Source: a virus. Taken from it: 36,548 bases of DNA. The notes under the pieces are model-generated. The model made no database searches. It was not told where the DNA came from and was given only the letters and a program-made list of their open reading frames with translations. The position numbers were made by a program, and so were the translations under genes. This document shows, piece by piece, positions 5,058 to 32,458 of the stretch. The stretch lies in IMG/VR virus record IMGVR_UViG_3300028025_005791, positions 1 to 36,548 of that record; one strand, written 5' to 3'. Each line of letters starts with the position of its first letter. The stretch's first letter is position 1.

Positions 5058-5122
5058 GGAAAATCATATGGGCATCATAAGAAAATTCTTACGCATATCA
5101 TAAGGAGAAGCATATATGGCAT
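5056..5122 (+). repeat. Imperfect tandem copy of a ribosome-binding/start region with an 11-codon micro-ORF
   Basis: The sequence AAGGAAAATCATATGGGCAT at 5056-5075 resembles AAGGAGAAGCATATATGGCA at 5102-5121, where the second copy is the real RBS and start of the fibre gene at 5116. The first copy has its own ATG at 5068, opening an 11-codon frame (MGIIRKFLRIS) that ends at 5103, inside the second Shine-Dalgarno. The likely explanation is a small duplication of the start region. A leader peptide that couples translation is possible but unproven. Confidence 0.4.
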
Positions 5123-5730
5123 GGCTAACTAAACCAGTAGAGAAACCTGAGTGGGCAACGGGCGGAGGTGCCGACGTTCTCACTCCCAGTGTCGGCAAGC
5201 AGGCCGTTGGATGGATTGCTGAAAAGCCTCCCTACCAGTGGTTTAACTGGCTTCACAAGTGGACTTATCTTTGGATCGCCTACTTCGAAAACAGAGTGGA
5301 CGGCCTCAACGGAATAACCGACGCGGTGATAGGGGCAACGTCCGGCTCATCCCATGCCAGCTTCGCCGCCCTTCTTGCCGATGGTAACGTGGCGAACATC
5401 AAGAACATCTGGGTCATCTCCCCCATCGTCCTGACCGCTGACATCGTCTTGCCCAATACATTCAACGGCAAGATCATAAACTTTAAACCGCAAGCAACGA
5501 TCACCAAGGGCGGATCGGCCACAAAGGGCCTAGTGATTGAGGGCCAAAACGTTAGGGTGTACAATCCTACTTTCATTGGATTTAGCGGCGGCGGTGACAA
5601 GGCTTTGGAATTCGCAGTCGGGTCTAAAAACAATATGGTCTTTGGACTGTACGCAAGCAATAGCGGGACCGATCCGGTGTCAATGCTCGGGACCAATAAC
5701 AACGAAGTATCGACCATCATTGAGGAGTAA
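5116..5730 (+). CDS. Short tail fibre / tailspike-like protein
   Basis: A 204-residue protein. Its N-terminus (WLTKPVEKPEWATGGG, then G-W-I-A-E-K-P-P-Y-Q-W-F-N-W-L at about 35-50) is a recurring start of phage fibre proteins that attach to the baseplate. From about residue 100 on, short beta repeats (IVLTADIVLPNTFNGKIINF, then V-R-V-Y-N-P-T-F-I-G-F) suggest the beginning of a right-handed beta-helix. The protein is short for a complete tailspike, so it may be an adaptor or a truncated spike. RBS: GGAG at 5104-5107, 8 bases before the ATG. It is followed after 3 bases by the large fibre-like gene. Confidence 0.7.
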   Translation: MAWLTKPVEKPEWATGGGADVLTPSVGKQAVGWIAEKPPYQWFNWLHKWTYLWIAYFENRVDGLNGITDAVIGATSGSSHASFAALLADGNVANIKNIWVISPIVLTADIVLPNTFNGKIINFKPQATITKGGSATKGLVIEGQNVRVYNPTFIGFSGGGDKALEFAVGSKNNMVFGLYASNSGTDPVSMLGTNNNEVSTIIEE

Positions 5731-5733
5731 AAT

Positions 5734-8094
5734 ATGACAAGGCAAGTAACAGCGATCTTGCTCACGCTTCTGCTTCACACGCAGGCGTGGGCCCTAGTAG
5801 AAAACACCGACGCGTCAACGTTTGGGCGCGCTAGCACCACGGCCGCGAAGCAGCTTATCTTTAACACCGGGGACGGTGCCGGGAATAAGCGTTTCAGCAT
5901 GGACGCAGTAACCAACCTCATGACGTGGAATAGTGACCTCACAGTCACCGGCGACCTCGAGGCGGACGACTTCCATCTCTTGGACGATGCAGATATCGAC
6001 GGGGATCTCAACGTCGATGGCGTCCTGGGAGTTACGGGGAATTCTTCTCTTAAGGGAAACAGCATTTTCTTCGGTGACAATGCCAACTCTGACAAGACCT
6101 TCTTTGGGAACAGGTCAGGCGTAACTGACCCCTACCTTCAATGGGATGAGGCCAAGCTGGCATGGGTCTTCTCCAATGACGGCGTTAATGAATTCGAAAT
6201 GGGGTCTGGGTCAGGAGGAGGCGACGCAAGGAACTACGTCGAAAACTTCAACTTTGAGATTGATGCTTCGGGCGTGACCGCCTATGCGGACGCGGCCGGC
6301 GTGGCCCCGGTGGACGCATCGGGCGGAGCTCCAACCCTCACCTGTACGCGAAATACCAGTGCTCCCATATACGACACAGCGGACTTGATCATCACCAAGG
6401 ACGCTGCCAACCGACAAGGTGAAGGGTGCGCCATTGATCTTATCCAGTTCCAACCGGGCGACAGTCTCGGGAACGTGATGACTGTTCGCTTTATTTTGAA
6501 GTCTTCAACGGCCTTTGCCTTGGGTGATATTCGCGCTTATCTGATCAATGAAGACACCGGCGAAGTCATCGAGCCCGTTCCAACTCAGGTCACCGCAGGC
6601 ATCAATGCGCATCAAAAACCAATTGAGTTTCAAACCTCTCCCACTGGAAATGACTACAAGCTGGCCTTCCACGTAGCAAGCACAAGTGCCTTGGCCTACA
6701 CGTACCAGATTGATGAGGTCAAAGTTTCCAAGGCATCAACAACCTCGGGCGCAATCCAAACTGCGACCCTGGCGCTTCCGGGAGTAACAACAAACTGGAC
6801 TAACACAGCAGTCACGGCCTTCTATACTAGGCACGGAGACCTTGCGGATGTTGACATCCTTCTAACCAACACAGGGACTCCCGCAGGAAGCTCATTGCAG
6901 GTAACCCTTCCATTCTCCGTTGATACATCAAAGATCTCTTATACAGGCCCGAACGCCTCAAACTTTAGAGGCTTCGCCGCATCAAGGGACGAGGGTTCAT
7001 CCAATACAAACGTTGGGGCTGTCTCGTTCAATAGTGGTGGGTCCTTCGATATCCTCTATAACAATGGGACTTCAACTTCTGCACCGATAACTCCAACCGC
7101 TCCATATAGCTTCGACGCAACCGATAAGATCAGCATCCGCCTTTACAACATCCCTATCAGTGGATGGTCTCCGACCACGGCCATGGCATCCGAGGCCGGC
7201 TTTGGCCAGGTGGGCGCGCGCTGGACACTCTCTGCCAACCAAAGCATTGGAACTGCCAGCGCGGTATTCGTCTCCCTGGACAGCGCCACTGTCGAAAGTG
7301 CATTCGTTCAAGGGATGGAATGCGATCCCGTCTTGTACCGATGCACGGCTACCGAGTCAGGCATCTATAACGTTGGCGGATCTGTTACCGTATTCAACGT
7401 TACTCCCGGTGAAGTAGTAGACGCGTACGTTTACAAGAACGGAGTGATCATTTCCCAAGGCGAAATTACCATCCCGGGATCTGGCCTTGGCTTTGTGGGG
7501 ATACCATCGACTAGCATCCCCATGAAGAAGGGGGACTATCTCGAGGTCGCAATCGACTCGACAGTGGACGCAAGCTATCTTGTGGTCTCTGGAGTAGGGA
7601 CCTACCTGACCGCTATCAAAACAGCAGACCATCAAGCGTTGGCTGCAAGTCGCGTTGTCTCAGCATCCTATGGGACTGCTTCAGGTCAGGTTATCCCTAC
7701 CAGCACGTTAACGGTCATTGATTTTGAGAGCAAGATTTACGATGACCATGGCGCTGTTACGACCGGGTCGGGATGGGTTTTCACTGCTCCGATGGCCGGG
7801 AAGTATTCCATGTCTTGCATGATGACGATAACGCAGTCATCTGATTTCGCTGCAGGTGAGGGAATTCAAGCATACATCCGGAAGAATGGATCAAACGTTG
7901 CTCAAAATGTTTTTATTTTTACAAGCACTGGGATCAATTCAAGAGAGCAATCGGTCCCGATCTTCACTGAAGAGAGTCTAGTGACGGGGGACACCTTGCA
8001 GCTTGTCGGATTTCAAGACTCTGGAGTCAATCAAAACATTTCATTACCGGCGGCCAATAGGTGCTCAATTCACAGGATCGGAGGCATTGATTAG
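5734..8094 (+). CDS. Large fibre-like protein with Sec signal peptide and C1q-like domains
   Basis: A 786-residue protein. Residues 1-20 form a classical signal peptide (positive start, hydrophobic AILLTLLLHTQAW, cleavage after AWA). Next comes a fibre-like segment with short D-G/V-x-G repeats (about 68-108: LTVTGDLEADDF, then DIDGDLNVDGVLGVTGN). A Ser/Gly linker around 157-164 leads into a jelly-roll-like domain (about 167-335). The C-terminal part holds two C1q/TNF-like beta sandwiches, recognised by 'S-G-I-Y-N-V-G-G-S-V-T-V' with 'A-Y-V-Y-K-N-G' and by 'A-G-K-Y-S-M-S-C-M-M-T-I' with 'A-Y-I-R-K-N-G'. Such domains trimerise and bind ligands in phage fibres and surface adhesins. A signal peptide is unexpected for a virion protein assembled in the cytoplasm. 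It could be an exported adhesin acquired from a host. Position right after the fibre gene favours a fibre origin. Confidence 0.7.
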   Translation: MTRQVTAILLTLLLHTQAWALVENTDASTFGRASTTAAKQLIFNTGDGAGNKRFSMDAVTNLMTWNSDLTVTGDLEADDFHLLDDADIDGDLNVDGVLGVTGNSSLKGNSIFFGDNANSDKTFFGNRSGVTDPYLQWDEAKLAWVFSNDGVNEFEMGSGSGGGDARNYVENFNFEIDASGVTAYADAAGVAPVDASGGAPTLTCTRNTSAPIYDTADLIITKDAANRQGEGCAIDLIQFQPGDSLGNVMTVRFILKSSTAFALGDIRAYLINEDTGEVIEPVPTQVTAGINAHQKPIEFQTSPTGNDYKLAFHVASTSALAYTYQIDEVKVSKASTTSGAIQTATLALPGVTTNWTNTAVTAFYTRHGDLADVDILLTNTGTPAGSSLQVTLPFSVDTSKISYTGPNASNFRGFAASRDEGSSNTNVGAVSFNSGGSFDILYNNGTSTSAPITPTAPYSFDATDKISIRLYNIPISGWSPTTAMASEAGFGQVGARWTLSANQSIGTASAVFVSLDSATVESAFVQGMECDPVLYRCTATESGIYNVGGSVTVFNVTPGEVVDAYVYKNGVIISQGEITIPGSGLGFVGIPSTSIPMKKGDYLEVAIDSTVDASYLVVSGVGTYLTAIKTADHQALAASRVVSASYGTASGQVIPTSTLTVIDFESKIYDDHGAVTTGSGWVFTAPMAGKYSMSCMMTITQSSDFAAGEGIQAYIRKNGSNVAQNVFIFTSTGINSREQSVPIFTEESLVTGDTLQLVGFQDSGVNQNISLPAANRCSIHRIGGID

Positions 8095-8096
8095 TT

Positions 8097-9821
8097 ATGA
8101 GAAAATTAAAAGAGTTATTTAAGCTAGCTAAATTCTGGGTCAAGAGAAACGTCTTCAAGTCCTCGGCGATATCGCTTGTGGCCTTGGCGCTTCCCATCTT
8201 CATTTACGCAAGCGCGGCTGGCACTTATAAAGTCGCAGTCGTCGGCGATATGGGGACGGGCGGATCTCAGCAGATGGCCGTCGCGAAGACTCTCCAGGGC
8301 CAAGGACTGGATGAGGTCGCCTTCACGGGTGACCTCGTTTACGAGTACGGCCTAAAAAATGAAGATGACCCAAAGTTTCTCTCCCACTTTTACAACGTGT
8401 ACTCAACTCTAGGCATCCCACTTTCCCCGGCGCTTGGAAACCACGACTGGTTACAAGACGCGGGCGCGTGGCGCAAGATCCACAAGTCCGGGAAGTACAA
8501 GCACCTAAACTCTCCTGACCTGTACTGGGCAGATCTTCGCGGGCAGTTGTGCCAGATCTTCCTGGATACCGATCCGATCGTCAGGGGTTATGAGGACTAC
8601 GCCAACACTCAGGCCGCATGGATCAAGGCCAGGGTTTCGGAATGCCGCACTAATGGCGCATTGATGATTGTTGCTTATGGCCACCATCCCTACATGTCCA
8701 GCGGCGAGCACCGTAACGCCCAAGGCATGATGAAAGACTTCCTTGAGCAAAACATCCTGGGCGTTGTGGACATCTACTTTTCAGGACACGACCACAACCT
8801 AGAAGACCTTGGCCAGGTTGACGGTACACAATTGGTCGTCAGCGGGGCCGGCGGCAAGGGGCGTGACTTCGACGTAGACCCGCCCATCTTTGGCTCGACC
8901 GAGCCGGGCTATGTTGTGATGACCTACTCCAAAGGCGGGACTGCAGAGATAGTCTTTAAGGCGGTCAGGAAAGGCGTGGCCGTTGATATTCACACGGTCA
9001 AAGTCGTTGCGAGAAAAGTTGAAGTACGTCCGACCAAGCCTGAAGAACCTGCACCTATTCCAACTCCTGGCCCGGTAGAGCCGCCGGTCACATCGTATTG
9101 GAAGCCCGGCCCTGCGAAATCGTTCCAGATCCTTCACTACGGTGACATCAAGACGCTTAAGAAAAACCTTCGCAAGGTGGACATTGTCACCATGGAGCTC
9201 GAAGAGTTTTGGACTAATGAGAACGGGCCCCAAAACGGGAAAGAGGCCGTTGCTTACGCCCACTCTCTTGGTGCCAAAGTCGTGTGCTACACGTCAGTGG
9301 GATGGGCAGTCTATCAAGAGGACGCCGATCAGTTTCCACGGGATGCCATGGGTAAGGTGATGGAAGACTGGCCAGATGAGCGTTGGGGAGATCCTCGCAA
9401 GCCGTCCCTTAAGGCGTTCCTGGGCAAGAGGATGGAGGCCTGCAGATCCTTCGGAGCGGACGCCGTTGAGCTAGACAACATGGACACCGAGAGCAACAAG
9501 GAAGAGAACGGCATCAAGATCACCAAGCAGGAGAACATCGAGGCCATGATCGAGCTAGCACAGATGGCCCACGATAGAGGCCTGGCCATCATGCAGAAAA
9601 ACTCAGGCGAGATGGCCAAGGAATTGGAGCCGTTCTTTGACGGGATCTATATCGAGTCCTGCAATCACTATCGCTACAAGGAATGCGGAATGTACATGGA
9701 CGCGTACGGCGGAAAGGGCAAGCCAATCATTATGCTGGAGTATCCCAAAAACTTGAGCAAGTGCTACTCGGCCCCGGGCGTTGCATGCCAGTTGAAGCGT
9801 GGATATTTTAAAGAGCTATAA
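8097..9821 (+). CDS. Exported fusion of calcineurin-like phosphoesterase and GH114-type glycosidase
   Basis: A 574-residue two-domain protein. Residues 1-40 are a basic n-region and a hydrophobic stretch (AISLVALALPIFIYASA) that can act as signal peptide (cleavage after ASA) or anchor. Residues 44-300 carry the full calcineurin-like metallophosphoesterase set: GDMG at 50-53, GDL at 78-80, GNHD at 114-117, GHH at 195-197 and GHDH at 230-233. A proline-rich linker (about 311-340) leads into a TM1410/GH114-type barrel (about 342-550). That barrel has YTSVG, DAVELDNMD at 455-463 with candidate acidic catalytic residues, and FDGIYIES ending in E520/S521. GH114 enzymes cleave alpha-1,4-linked galactosamine polymers in exopolysaccharide. 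Activity on host envelope or capsule polymers is inferred. It starts 2 bases after the preceding stop and lies between fibre and small membrane-protein genes. Confidence 0.8.
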   Translation: MRKLKELFKLAKFWVKRNVFKSSAISLVALALPIFIYASAAGTYKVAVVGDMGTGGSQQMAVAKTLQGQGLDEVAFTGDLVYEYGLKNEDDPKFLSHFYNVYSTLGIPLSPALGNHDWLQDAGAWRKIHKSGKYKHLNSPDLYWADLRGQLCQIFLDTDPIVRGYEDYANTQAAWIKARVSECRTNGALMIVAYGHHPYMSSGEHRNAQGMMKDFLEQNILGVVDIYFSGHDHNLEDLGQVDGTQLVVSGAGGKGRDFDVDPPIFGSTEPGYVVMTYSKGGTAEIVFKAVRKGVAVDIHTVKVVARKVEVRPTKPEEPAPIPTPGPVEPPVTSYWKPGPAKSFQILHYGDIKTLKKNLRKVDIVTMELEEFWTNENGPQNGKEAVAYAHSLGAKVVCYTSVGWAVYQEDADQFPRDAMGKVMEDWPDERWGDPRKPSLKAFLGKRMEACRSFGADAVELDNMDTESNKEENGIKITKQENIEAMIELAQMAHDRGLAIMQKNSGEMAKELEPFFDGIYIESCNHYRYKECGMYMDAYGGKGKPIIMLEYPKNLSKCYSAPGVACQLKRGYFKEL

Positions 9822-9844
9822 CCTAAAGGGCCATGGAGGGCTTG

Positions 9845-10021
9845 ATGGGAGAAGTCGGATGCAAGGATGCCAGCTTTATTTTGGAGGCCGTCAAAACGGT
9901 CGGCTTCCCAATCGTCGCCTACCTCCTGCTCTTCGCAGACAAGTGGTACGCCGACAAGCGCCGATGGGACAGGATCTTAAAGGTCTTGGAGGATGGCGCG
10001 GTGACAAATAAGGAGCCTTAA
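9845..10021 (+). CDS. Small single-span membrane protein, holin candidate
   Basis: A 58-residue protein if started at ATG 9845, which has GGAGG at 9835-9839. An in-frame ATG at 9833 is the alternative (62 residues). It has one hydrophobic stretch (TVGFPIVAYLLLFA) followed by a highly charged cytosolic tail (DKWYADKRRWDRILKVLED). One-span proteins with a charged C-terminus resemble BhlA-type or class III holins, but I see no diagnostic motif. Its place after the fibre and glycosidase genes, ahead of another one-span protein, fits a lysis role only by context. Confidence 0.6.
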   Translation: MGEVGCKDASFILEAVKTVGFPIVAYLLLFADKWYADKRRWDRILKVLEDGAVTNKEP

Positions 10022-10492: not shown

Positions 10493-10524
10493 GGGCCGGG
10501 CGTGAGTCCGGCCCTTTTTATTTT
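10493..10524 (+). terminator. Rho-independent terminator
   Basis: Perfect 7-bp stem GGGCCGG (10493-10499) with CCGGCCC (10508-10514), an 8-base loop, then TTTTTATTTT. It separates the EF-hand-like gene from the lipoprotein gene, which begins only 13 bases later. Confidence 0.85.
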
Positions 10525-10537
10525 CAAGGAGCCAATC

Positions 10538-11317
10538 ATGACCAATCTTAAAAACTTTACTGCATCAATTCTCTTCTTCGCCTGCTTCTTATTCATGCTT
10601 TCACTGCAAGCATGCCAGTCAACAAGCGCGCCCACGTCGGCGGTACGGGACGAGATCTATCGCCACGACATGGTCGTAAAGATCGACGGCCAGACAATCC
10701 CAGGGGTGGGAATTGTAAACACGATGGGGGGCGAGGGAAAACCAAAGGACGTTTTCAAGATCCACGTCTATGCCCCTGGAGACCTAGACTATTTTAGCTT
10801 TAGCAATTGTCACCGGGATGAGCCTACTAAGGATGCCTTCGACAACGATGACATGGCCGTCAAGGAAACCAGAAGAGTGCTCGGGATATTCAAGCGCAAG
10901 ATCGTGAAGAAGAGAGAGATCGAATTCGAGTACCGACCAAACCGCTTGGAGAAGTCCGAGTGTCCACTCATATTCGAAGGCGGCAACAAGGGCGGAGTTA
11001 ACTCCTGGGCGTACGTGGATCTCAAAGAGCCTTGGCTCAAGCTTGCCGCCGAGCTCTTGTGCTCAGGCGACGTGCTCCCGTCCTACGGGTCATCAATCTG
11101 CCAGGCCAAGGTCGGAACTACCCAGGAAATTAAATTCCTGGAGAGCGTAAAAATATCACCTACCGAAAATTGCCCACTCGGAAGCCCGGGAGAAAAGGAA
11201 GGAGAAGTCTTCCAGTTCCCAGTGGCGAGTGGCCGCTGCATTTATTATTTCAAAGCAGCGAGTGGAAGTGTGCATCGTTTGACCATGATCGGTTACGATA
11301 AAGTAAATCTAAAGTAG
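10538..11317 (+). CDS. Putative lipoprotein, unknown function
   Basis: A 259-residue protein starting at ATG 10538 (AAGGAG at 10527-10532). The N-terminus has a hydrophobic signal (SILFFACFLFMLSLQAC) ending in a lipobox L-Q-A-C, so the mature protein should be lipid-anchored at Cys27 or nearby. The rest is mixed, with several cysteines (SNCHRDE, SECPLIF, LLCSGD, SSICQ, ENCPLG, SGRCIYY) that could form disulfides outside the cytoplasm. I recognise no named domain. Phage lipoproteins placed after a terminator are often lysogenic-conversion or superinfection-exclusion genes; here that is inference from the layout. Confidence 0.75.
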   Translation: MTNLKNFTASILFFACFLFMLSLQACQSTSAPTSAVRDEIYRHDMVVKIDGQTIPGVGIVNTMGGEGKPKDVFKIHVYAPGDLDYFSFSNCHRDEPTKDAFDNDDMAVKETRRVLGIFKRKIVKKREIEFEYRPNRLEKSECPLIFEGGNKGGVNSWAYVDLKEPWLKLAAELLCSGDVLPSYGSSICQAKVGTTQEIKFLESVKISPTENCPLGSPGEKEGEVFQFPVASGRCIYYFKAASGSVHRLTMIGYDKVNLK

Positions 11318-11325
11318 GAGGCCGC

Positions 11326-11565
11326 ATGGTCACTTCAATTCTGACAATGATCCTCGGATGGATCGGTAGCGAGGCCGCGATGAAACTAGCAATCCACTGG
11401 ATTGGGAAATACATCGCGAGCGACAAGGCCAGCGAAGAAGAGAGACAGGCATGGGCCGCATGGCTTAAGGCCGCGGAGTCTAGGCCAAGTGTCTCGACCG
11501 GGCTTAGGGCCTCCATGCAGGAGCAGCGTGCACGGCTCGGTATCCCCGACCCGACAATTCACTAG
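11326..11565 (+). CDS. Small protein with amphipathic/hydrophobic N-terminus
   Basis: A 79-residue protein with TAGGAGG just upstream of ATG 11326, 8 bases after the lipoprotein stop. Residues 1-31 (VTSILTMILGWIGSEAAM, then KLAIHWIGKYIAS) could form one or two short membrane or amphipathic helices. The remainder is charged and ends in RLGIPDPTIH. A membrane-active role is possible, but no family is recognised. Confidence 0.6.
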   Translation: MVTSILTMILGWIGSEAAMKLAIHWIGKYIASDKASEEERQAWAAWLKAAESRPSVSTGLRASMQEQRARLGIPDPTIH

Positions 11566-29626: not shown

Positions 29627-29941
29627 ATGAACTATCCAGTAAAGATCATCAAGGGCGAAGACAAGGTGCTTCTATTTTTGCACCAACTGTCGGACGGTCG
29701 TGCGCTTGACCTCACCGGAAAGACGGTCAACTTCAAACTCAAAATAAACTCAGTACTCACGACGATCGCGGCCACGGTGACTTCGGCCGCTGCGGGTGAG
29801 GCAACGTTGGCGCTGACAGATGCTCAAACACTACTGCTCGCAAGCGGGGTTTTGAATATCGACTCCTACGTGGCCGACGGTGCAGACCTGACCATCGTCC
29901 AGTTCTATAACCAGATCCAAGTGGCCGAGGCAATCGTATGA
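29627..29941 (+). CDS. BppU/Ig-like N-terminal fibre domain protein
   Basis: A 104-residue protein with AAGAGGAGAG upstream of ATG 29627. The pattern 'F-L-H-Q-L-S-D-G-R-A-L-D-L-T-G-K-T-V-N-F-K-L' followed by A-x-A-G-E-A-T-L-A-L-T and Y-N-Q-I-Q-V is that of the BppU-type beta-sandwich domain that joins receptor-binding proteins to the virion. It overlaps the collagen-like fibre gene (ATGA). The two may form one appendage. Confidence 0.65.
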   Translation: MNYPVKIIKGEDKVLLFLHQLSDGRALDLTGKTVNFKLKINSVLTTIAATVTSAAAGEATLALTDAQTLLLASGVLNIDSYVADGADLTIVQFYNQIQVAEAIV

Positions 29942-31860
29942 CGTGCGTACTCAAGGGCATTGTCAGGACTCTACAAGACGGCACCTTGCTAGATGGCCCA
30001 TTGACCGGAAAGGTCTTCGCCCCCTTGTCTTATGCTTCAATAGGGCCGCCGGGGGCAGATGGCGAGGACGGTGCTGACGGTGCAGATGGCGCTCCAGGAA
30101 GCCTTATCCTAACAGGATCGGGCGCTCCTTCTTCAGGCGCTGGCATCATCGGTGATCTCTATATTGACGTGGCCAGTTCCAATCAGAGCTACTACCGCAA
30201 AAACGGCGTATCCACTTGGCTTTTCATTGCGGATCTTAAGGGTCTGCAAGGGGTGCCAGGAAGCGACGGTGCGGATGGCCTAGATGGGATCGATGGCGCA
30301 GACGGTGCTCCCGGACTGGATGGAGATGACGGGGCCCCGGGCGCTACGTGGTTTCGCACGGCGGGAGTACCGAGCTCAGGCCTCGGCGCGAATAATGATT
30401 TTGCCATTGATACTGACTCCTCGCTCTTCAACGTCTACTTCAAAATGGGCGGTAGCTGGAATTTAATCGGTAACCTCAAGGAACTGACCGGCCCGGCCGG
30501 TGGAGAGTTGACGGGCACCTTCCCTAACCCCGCTCTTTCCACCGCCATCAAAACGTTTCTTCTTGCGCGCGCTAACCATACCGGCGTCCAACTTGCCAGT
30601 ACCATTTCGGACTTCACGACGGCCGCTCAGTCCGCCGCCGTCCAGAATGACTTGTCTAGTTCGGCCGTAAAGGCCCCGGCTGCGGATGCTGTGAATACCG
30701 CGCTGGCCGGCAAGATGACCGATCCTATGACTACCAACGGCGACTTGATCACACGGGCCGCAGGCGTTCCTGCAAGGCTCGGTATCGGAGCGCCCGATGC
30801 CATTCTTCGCGTGGTGGGCGGTGCCCCGGCATGGGAAGAAGAAAACCTCATGCAGGATATTGGGGACGGGTCGGATGGAAACCTAACTTTGTCCGGGGCG
30901 CTGACGGCACCGGACATTCTTTACTATGACACTCTAACCCTCAATTCCATCGCGGCACTCAATCCGGATGGCTACATCATTTACGCCAAGACCTTAGACC
31001 TTTCGAACGCTCCCGCCGGTGCTATTTCCAGGAATGGAAACAACGGCGCTCTAAGCAGTAGCAATAGCAGCGCAGCGGGAGGTGCGGCGTTCACGGCCAG
31101 GGTGCTCGCGACCAATGCGGCCGGCGGTGCAGGTGCGGCCGGTGTAACCAATAACGGTGTCCAAGGCGCAGCGGGCGGGGCCGTGACAATCGGAAACGGC
31201 GGAAACGGCGGGGCCAGTGGTGCATCGGGCGCAGGGGGATCAGGCCTTGCAGCGGCGGCAATTGCCGGTGGTGCGGTCGCGACGACAATTCACTTCGGGC
31301 GCTTTGAATATCAATTCCTACGTGGTGCTACTCAGGTGTCAGGCGGTGCAGGTGGCCGTGGCGGTAACTCAGGAGGTGGCGACGGTGCCAACTCTTCTCG
31401 AGGCGGAGGAGGCGGCGGCGCAGGTGGGGCCGTTCTCGTTCTTTACGTGGGCGAGATCATAACCTCTCCTTCGACTCCTGCGGGCGCGATCACTGCCATT
31501 GGCGGGATTGGTGGACGACAAAACAATCCACCGGCCGCTGGAAACGTGGGCGGCGCGGGCGGCGCGGGCGGCGGCGGTGGTGGATACATCTACATTGCGT
31601 ACGTTAAAAAGACGGGCCCAGTTATTGCTGACCTTATCGATGCATCCGGCGGAAACGGCGGCAACGGGTCGAACGGGCTTGGGACCGGGATTGGAGGCAA
31701 CGGCGGGGCAGGCGGAAACGGTGGAAGAATTCAACTCTTCAACGTGACCACCGGCCTGGGGACACTAACAGTTGGCGCGGCCGGATCTGCAGGCACGGTT
31801 GGCTCTGGAGTCACCGGCGGCGTCGGCGGCCAGGGCGGATCTTGCAAGGTTTCACTTTAG
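29938..31860 (+). CDS. Collagen-like and glycine-rich fibre/adhesin
   Basis: A 640-residue protein. Residues about 36-54 and 102-135 are uninterrupted G-x-y triplets (start GPPGADGEDGADGADGAPG), that is, collagen-like trimerising segments. Each is followed by a similar 40-residue unit (GAPSSGAGIIGDLYIDVASS versus GVPSSGLGANNDFAIDTDSS), an internal duplication. After a helical stretch (about 190-260) and a knob, residues about 370-640 are extremely glycine-rich (GGNGGASGASGAGG, GGRGGNSGGGDGANSSRGGG). These resemble polyglycine-II sandwich adhesins such as the S16 gp38 tip. Likely a trimeric receptor-binding fibre. It is unusual that the gene sits between portal and MuF genes rather than with the tail genes. 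Confidence 0.75.
   Translation: MTCVLKGIVRTLQDGTLLDGPLTGKVFAPLSYASIGPPGADGEDGADGADGAPGSLILTGSGAPSSGAGIIGDLYIDVASSNQSYYRKNGVSTWLFIADLKGLQGVPGSDGADGLDGIDGADGAPGLDGDDGAPGATWFRTAGVPSSGLGANNDFAIDTDSSLFNVYFKMGGSWNLIGNLKELTGPAGGELTGTFPNPALSTAIKTFLLARANHTGVQLASTISDFTTAAQSAAVQNDLSSSAVKAPAADAVNTALAGKMTDPMTTNGDLITRAAGVPARLGIGAPDAILRVVGGAPAWEEENLMQDIGDGSDGNLTLSGALTAPDILYYDTLTLNSIAALNPDGYIIYAKTLDLSNAPAGAISRNGNNGALSSSNSSAAGGAAFTARVLATNAAGGAGAAGVTNNGVQGAAGGAVTIGNGGNGGASGASGAGGSGLAAAAIAGGAVATTIHFGRFEYQFLRGATQVSGGAGGRGGNSGGGDGANSSRGGGGGGAGGAVLVLYVGEIITSPSTPAGAITAIGGIGGRQNNPPAAGNVGGAGGAGGGGGGYIYIAYVKKTGPVIADLIDASGGNGGNGSNGLGTGIGGNGGAGGNGGRIQLFNVTTGLGTLTVGAAGSAGTVGSGVTGGVGGQGGSCKVSL
30043..30342 (+). repeat. 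Two collagen-like G-x-y coding tracts with duplicated spacer
   Basis: Triplet-repeat coding DNA at about 30043-30099 and 30241-30342, built from GAYGG-type units (GATGGC, GACGGT, GCAGAT). Spacer units after each tract are related at protein level, which suggests duplication of a tract-plus-domain module. Confidence 0.6.
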
Positions 31861-31867
31861 GAGATTT

Positions 31868-32458
31868 ATGGAAACTCGAAATATTCTCAACTACCTTGGA
31901 GATGTCATTGGCTCTTTGACTCTCCCAGACTCTACCAGCGAAGAAGTGTGGGAAGAGAAGCTCTTAAAATATGCTTCCGCGCCTGCTGGTGACGAGTCTT
32001 TCTACCAACCATCTTTTGCGGTGGACAAGGATGGCGTTGATCAACTGATTGAAGACGAAGAGTGGGCGGTCATCTCTGGCCCAAATGTTCTTTGGGACAC
32101 GCAGTCTAATTACGATATCTCCAACGATGACTTTATTGTCGGGGTCCAAGGCATCTATCTATTCGACGGGCAGTTTAAAATTACCGACATGGAAAATGTG
32201 GCGACGATCGAAATCGCCATTTTTAAAAGAGAAGATCCTGAGGACGACTACTGGTTTATTCTCAATAAGCGAAACGTTGTGGCGAGCTCTGGAGAGACCC
32301 AGATGAGTGGCATGACCTCGCTGGATTTTAGAGCGAACGAGAAGTACACGGTCAAAATCAAGGTGACCAAGTCACATCCCATGCTTTCCATAAGTGCCAA
32401 AATATCTGGCAGCGACGACTACACGGCATGGGGTTACAACTTCATTCGGAAGCTGTAG
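31868..32458 (+). CDS. Fibre-associated protein with C1q-like C-terminal domain
   Basis: A 196-residue protein from ATG 31868 (AGGAG just upstream); frames that start earlier overlap the adhesin gene. The C-terminal half (about 85-196) has the C1q-like rhythm G-I-Y-L-F-D-G-Q-F-K-I-T-D, then I-F-K-R-E-D, and F-R-A-N-E-K-Y-T-V-K-I-K-V. The same fold type ends the large fibre-like gene at 5734. The N-terminal part is acidic and helical. Probably a component or cap of the fibre encoded upstream. Confidence 0.6.
   Translation: METRNILNYLGDVIGSLTLPDSTSEEVWEEKLLKYASAPAGDESFYQPSFAVDKDGVDQLIEDEEWAVISGPNVLWDTQSNYDISNDDFIVGVQGIYLFDGQFKITDMENVATIEIAIFKREDPEDDYWFILNKRNVVASSGETQMSGMTSLDFRANEKYTVKIKVTKSHPMLSISAKISGSDDYTAWGYNFIRKL

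Follow-up and report, generated by a model that had tools for sequence, protein, structure and literature searches.

A phage gene for a predicted exported purple acid phosphatase–GH114 fusion protein, and the recurrence of predicted exported GH114 enzymes on other phages

Exopolysaccharide depolymerases of phages are mostly known as virion tailspikes. The GH32 levan fructotransferase of Bacillus phages SP10, phiNIT1 and SPG24 is predicted to be a soluble enzyme of bacterial origin that cuts a matrix polysaccharide, and is described in the relevant part of PMC4595243 as having no signal peptide. Phosphoesterases, too, have precedents on phages: gp26 of Microbacterium phage Rowlf is like a purple acid phosphatase (PAP), having been matched to a plant PAP, and the section of PMC12352085 that deals with it mentions no fusion to a glycoside hydrolase (GH), while a metallophosphoesterase of another phage disrupts the DNA of its host (PMC12287305). 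Among cellular enzymes, the closest described systems are the TRAP/ACP5-type PAPs (1ute, 1war, 1qhw) and Ega3, the GH114 endo-alpha-1,4-galactosaminidase of the fungus Aspergillus fumigatus (6oj1; PMC12054363). GH114 is listed in a table of a vinegar virome (PMC9602057), and the portions of the literature that we covered reported neither an exported GH114 on a phage nor a PAP-GH114 fusion. What is new here is such a fusion on a phage, together with the finding that predicted exported GH114 enzymes recur among phages.

The fusion gene lies in IMG/VR record IMGVR_UViG_3300028025_005791, whose 36,548 bases were analyzed in full and are referred to here as the window. The original prediction, made from the letters alone, had placed a signal or anchor, a metallophosphoesterase, a proline-rich linker and a GH114 domain in this order in one open reading frame of a phage, and translation, Pfam and the surrounding phage genes agree with it on every element (Table 1). 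The Pfam search found Metallophos (PF00149) at residues 45–234 (E 7.7e-9, 36.7 bits against a curated cut-off of 21.5) and Glyco_hydro_114 (PF03537) at residues 354–557 (E 5.4e-43, 147.3 bits against 27), both far beyond chance. These were the only two families above the cut-off, a peptidoglycan-cleaving (endolysin) domain being absent, and the protein matched no family in NCBIfam or PHROGs. No close relative of the whole protein was found in viral contigs or among 22 pattern matches in genome contigs. Its N-terminus has a basic n-region, a hydrophobic core and small residues at about positions 38–40. We examined such N-termini with a home-made Sec rule, which was passed by 4 of the 47 window genes and by 62 of 2350 shuffled N-termini used as a control; three of the four are late genes on the plus strand, starting at 5734, 8097 and 10538. 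What had been called a signal or anchor is thus read here as a predicted Sec signal, and on this sequence basis export of the fusion protein is predicted with high confidence.

The phage context of the gene is real. It stands in a run of plus-strand late genes, 2 bases after a fibre gene and 11 bases before the next gene, with fibre genes on one side and genes for small membrane proteins and a lipoprotein on the other. Genes for Dit-like, baseplate hub, wedge and J proteins occupy 1–5 kb of the window, and those for terminase, portal, head protease, cement and major capsid proteins 23–36 kb. Genes for sheath, tube and tape-measure proteins were not recognized in the window ORFs that were tested. 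The record is therefore probably incomplete, and what is missing would probably link the two window ends, from the capsid gene at 36 kb to the Dit-like gene at 1. Scans based on the portal and on the fibre returned no sister phages. Within the cluster of head genes, the methyltransferase and head morphogenesis genes flank a second fibre-like pair (29938–31860 and 31772–32458), which is collagen-like and has a weak C1q match.

Table 1. Features of the fusion gene and its late-gene neighbors in the window
Feature	Position	Strand	Basis or remark
Tail fibre protein	5116..5730	+	PHROG 2282 match, limited to the N-terminal part
Exported fibre-like protein, 786 aa	5734..8094	+	Signal peptide; two C1q-like C-terminal repeats by eye
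Predicted exported PAP-GH114 fusion gene	8097..9821	+	ATG start, 574 aa
Signal peptide, residues 1–40, predicted cut ~38–40	8097..8216	+	Hydropathy; home-made rule with shuffled control
PAP (TRAP/ACP5)-type domain, residues 45–310	8229..9026	+	Pfam, PDB matches; AF2 confidence low here
Pro-rich linker, residues ~311–336	9027..9104	+	Read off the translation
GH114 (beta/alpha)8 domain, residues 337–574	9105..9818	+	Pfam, alignment, AF2, structure comparison
Small protein, one hydrophobic stretch, holin-like by eye	9833..10021	+	Without family match
Lipoprotein (LQA|C lipobox)	10538..11317	+	Without family match (searched from GTG at 10502)
Weak holin/anti-holin match	11326..11565	+	PHROG 126, E 0.029

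We then assigned the phosphoesterase half to a type. Small TRAP-type PAPs carry the motifs GDxG, GDxxY, GNHD, xxxH and GHxH, with the Tyr among the metal ligands. Nine metallophosphoesterase residues are in place in the phage protein: D51, D79, Y82, N115, H196, H231 and H233 as the seven metal ligands, and H116 and H205 as the catalytic histidines, roles that we take over from uteroferrin. When the half was compared with PDB sequences by phmmer, TRAP purple acid phosphatases came first (1ute, E 4.2e-14), and six of the seven sequences at E<=1e-5 were TRAP/PAP, the seventh being GAP50. A profile built from eight relatives matched human PAP at 1e-56, and in the tree the half fell, on a long branch, within the starred clade that also holds TRAP-like PAPs. 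The motifs and catalytic His of 1ute, 1war and 1qhw align with those of the window protein, which differs in being fused to a glycoside hydrolase and whose likeness to them is known at the level of sequence. An AF2 model of residues 41–310, built without alignment depth, gave pLDDT blocks of 27–69, low because no relatives were available to it. By sequence, then, this half is of the purple-acid-phosphatase (TRAP) type, a refinement of the calcineurin-like motifs first noted, and it is very probably active. Two routes through viral contigs, both using narrow patterns, gave no match to it. Among named phages only two matches were found, both unannotated gut "phage" records (MT835841 and MT835888) with TRAP-like PAPs in which His replaces the Tyr ligand; a scan built on these two PAPs gave no relative in IMG/VR.

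For the GH114 half, the AF2 model was built from an alignment with 44 relatives and is confident, with pLDDT mostly above 90 over residues ~381–550. VIA-align found Ega3 (6oj1) as the closest solved structure (Z 26.1, rmsd 2.3 A over 227 aligned residues), followed by the F. solani GH114 (FsGH114)/9ep6 at Z 23.5, GH191 at Z 22.1 and 20.9, and the PelA hydrolase domain at Z 17.9; GH114, GH191 and the PelA hydrolase-domain families are treated as galactosaminidases in the part of PMC12054363 that concerns them. In the phmmer alignment D460 and E520 correspond to Asp189 and Glu247 of Ega3 at the expected spacing (58), and the loop tryptophan W425 to Trp154, again at the expected spacing (35; Ega3 numbering from PMC12054363). 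The nucleophile D460 and the acid/base E520 are invariant in all 45 alignment rows, and the conserved cysteines are retained except the last, which 43 of the 44 relatives have. Other positions have changed: the fusion has A404 and Q407 where all 44 relatives have E and R, F452 where all have K, E367 where 41 have D and E369 where 43 have D, and it has lost the WQWQL start typical of the 44 relatives. The Ega3 chain compared, which has no PAP domain, keeps E and R at the positions of A404 and Q407. The predicted GH114-type barrel has thus held up, and catalysis by this half is plausible from its sequence, activity being likely overall; the changes E404A, R407Q, D367E and D369E and the loss of WQWQL leave room for another specificity or for a loss of activity. 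Read from sequence, the active site appears intact in both halves, although for the PAP half the structure model is of the low confidence given above.

We next looked for GH114 on other phages. Of two alignment scans of IMG/VR viral contigs, one yielded 2 GH114 relatives from 9 pattern matches and the next, from 56, those 2 again and 4 more, so that six other phage contigs (L089, L090 and L179 to L182) carry the family. All six proteins exceed the Pfam cut-off and, like the window protein, pass the signal rule, each from some in-frame start. Unlike it, they appear without the phosphatase: no PAP profile match was found in L089 or L090, and L179 to L182 were seen as single-domain GH114 ORFs. 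The original prediction had considered an exported enzyme, rather than a virion tailspike, unusual for a phage; the exported form is supported, but six counterparts argue against its rarity. The GH114 half found nothing above chance in named phages (best E 2), nothing in 50 terminase-related virus records (50 of 80), and no clear GH114-like viral protein by Foldseek against BFVD (best TMq 0.26), where absence is weakly informative. An AU test on 29 sequences, comprising five phage GH114 (L180, near-identical to L179, was left out) and the window, rejected a single clade for the window and the other phage enzymes (p=0.0006). In the tree, L179 grouped with Pseudomonas and Chitinimonas (100/98), L181 with L182 (100/98), and L089 and L090 with one Polyangiaceae and one Actinomycetes sequence (87/98), on branches other than that of the window GH114, which was long and had no resolved placement. 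These results suggest that phages have taken up, more than once, enzymes of their hosts with a possible role in dissolving the slime around infected cells.

As to what the GH114 half might cut, its barrel and catalytic pair are in keeping with the cleavage of a galactosamine polymer that had been proposed for it, while the loss of invariant residues and the two Asp-to-Glu changes make that specificity only a lead. In Pseudoalteromonas THAF3 a GH114 gene adjoins the pel cluster, and 21 of the 80 genome loci, but none of 7 others examined, had a PelF-like GT4; queries with PelG, PelD and PelA-like sequences gave no hits in these 87 loci. Since the latter are absent and GT4 enzymes are common, the link to Pel is weak, and a true Pel-like galactosamine polymer is conceivable as the substrate but somewhat doubtful. 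For the further idea that the target polymer is phosphorylated, the fusion itself is the sole evidence, and we do not uphold it as a result.

Our preferred reading, to which we give about an even chance, is that the gene encodes a late, Sec-exported bifunctional hydrolase directed against host exopolysaccharide around the lysing cell, and not a virion tailspike. The signal peptide would carry the protein across the inner membrane during morphogenesis, and the protein would build up in the periplasm or outside, to be freed at lysis. The GH114 barrel, working through a retaining mechanism with its Asp and Glu, would then endo-cleave a host exopolysaccharide of alpha-linked amino sugars, and the PAP-type domain would hydrolyze phosphate monoesters that belong to this matrix or have come off it. 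With the matrix around the lysing cell loosened, progeny could escape and reach new cells. The sequences themselves show the two domains with their catalytic residues, a rule-based export signal, the place in the operon and the presence of predicted exported GH114 on further phages; that the fusion protein is exported by its actual host, is active, has this substrate and timing and benefits the phage is inferred.

The order of the late genes also suits a role in lysis itself, in which the exported enzyme would weaken an envelope-bound amino-sugar polymer, not free matrix, and help the holin and the lipoprotein to breach the envelope at the end of infection; the host might be one with a phosphate-bearing galactosamine polymer in its envelope. 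The fusion gene precedes the small membrane proteins and the lipoprotein, a GH24 lysozyme and a lipoprotein lie close to GH114 in L179, and no peptidoglycan hydrolase was recognized among the window ORFs tested. GH114, however, is not known to act on peptidoglycan, and an endolysin may be encoded in the missing part of the record. Other GH114 phages, moreover, have a separate cell-wall hydrolase: when neighboring ORFs were scanned with Pfam in five loci (all but L180), such an enzyme or a relative was found in three, namely GH24 in L179 (with a CHAP match below the cut-off further up), GH25 in L181 and an Rv2525c-like protein in L182, whereas those of L089 and L090 gave no match. We regard a lysis accessory as unlikely.

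We also examined cellular genomes. In the best 80 GH114 loci from GTDB species genomes no PAP was fused to GH114, and two (L122 and L120) had a separate PAP-like ORF on the opposite strand; by eye, the cellular GH114 relatives commonly start with a signal or lipoprotein sequence. Full-protein searches covered 235, 199, 201, 299 and 246 genomes of five phyla, presumed from records within them to be Myxococcota, Acidobacteriota, Chloroflexota, Pseudomonadota and Actinomycetota, at E cut-offs of 1e-8, 1e-22, 1e-22, 1e-20 and 1e-20, respectively (the first listed to ~2e-12). Among the matches listed, one spans both halves: L188, in one of the 235 presumed Myxococcota genomes (G280, of the phylum of a Nannocystaceae MAG). 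It encodes 624 aa with the same order of signal, Metallophos (1.2e-10) and GH114 (5e-85), and its neighbors, a SpoU methylase and a PEGA protein, are chromosomal, with no phage gene beside it. One of the two findings named with the original prediction as speaking against it, a bacterial gene with the same fusion and no phage link, thus occurs once in this sample, which shows that the architecture is not phage-specific but does not make the window gene non-phage. Fourteen further stretches, most picked for long open frames, held no other fusion, one of them (L210) being the same gene again. L188 differs from the window protein in its lipoprotein-type signal and in having GDHD/GDDH where the window has GNHD/GHDH; its phosphoesterase fell outside the clade of the window PAP, and its GH114 grouped with Alloalcanivorax and Cupriavidus. 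A clade of the two GH114 halves was formally not rejected (p 0.069), and the two fusions are probably, though not provably, independent by sequence.

The same searches gave 63 matches to the PAP half at E<=1e-20 in the presumed Myxococcota sample (42 at 1e-22) and none in the other four, a difference that, within the five phyla sampled, hints at a Myxococcota-like source. Relatives so common in one phylum, and PAP-like phage genes such as that of Rowlf, would fit auxiliary cargo for nutrient scavenging, with the PAP freeing phosphate outside the cell during infection and GH114 as a passenger or a matrix-targeting part. The six other phage GH114 were seen without PAP, however, so GH114 is the recurring part, and the late-operon position suits release better than uptake; we therefore hold scavenging to be rather improbable.

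A position directly behind the fibre genes could also mean that the protein sits on the tail beside the fibres as a virion depolymerase, its N-terminal hydrophobic stretch being an anchor and not an export signal. Against this, neither a virion-anchoring domain nor a PHROG match was found in the fusion protein, whose N-terminus, like that of the preceding fibre, fits an export signal by the rule, and the homologues in cells and on other phages are exported single enzymes, leaving little probability for this option. If the gene were decayed cargo, taken from a host and with its GH114 part out of function, this would account for the long branches of both halves (2.24 and 2.34) and the lost invariant residues, but it is very improbable given a full-length open frame that keeps the catalytic residues of both halves and, bar the last, the conserved Cys.

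If the matrix-directed hydrolase is the right reading, a Sec-exported, two-domain, operon-embedded enzyme and six single-domain counterparts of more than one origin point to a second strategy beside the tailspike, in which the matrix is digested from the infected cell and not from the particle. The Bacillus phage GH32 enzymes would resemble it in being soluble and of bacterial origin, while belonging to another family. Phage GH114 may also serve as tools against galactosamine-rich biofilms: bacterial GH114 are hard to produce, those chosen in the work reported in PMC12054363 having given no well-folded protein, so phage versions may be useful. More tentatively, exported GH114 may form a recurring, unnamed "matrix-release" class of phage enzymes, captured from hosts several times and often near lysis genes. 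The window would then hold a fused form, in which the changed GH114 residues and the added PAP make a hydrolase dedicated to a matrix of phosphorylated amino sugars. The host making this matrix would be uncultured and perhaps Myxococcota-like, and the C1q-type fibre, exported as well, would be delivered along with the enzyme.

That fibre (5734–8094) has its sole named-phage relative in a podovirus from Manatee Spring (L178, 35733–38483; 26% over residues 126–766). By eye, a stretch resembling a signal peptide follows an internal Met of this relative, whose gene precedes those for a small membrane protein and a lysozyme-like protein. Exported phage fibres recall the MAT fibres of Bdellovibrio described in PMC10769870, and kinship of the window fibre with MAT proteins is an idea suggested by architecture. 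In the record of L182 (G058), a stretch at 1501–2007 (L184) matches the window fibre in its C1q-like C-terminal part at E 4.4e-9.
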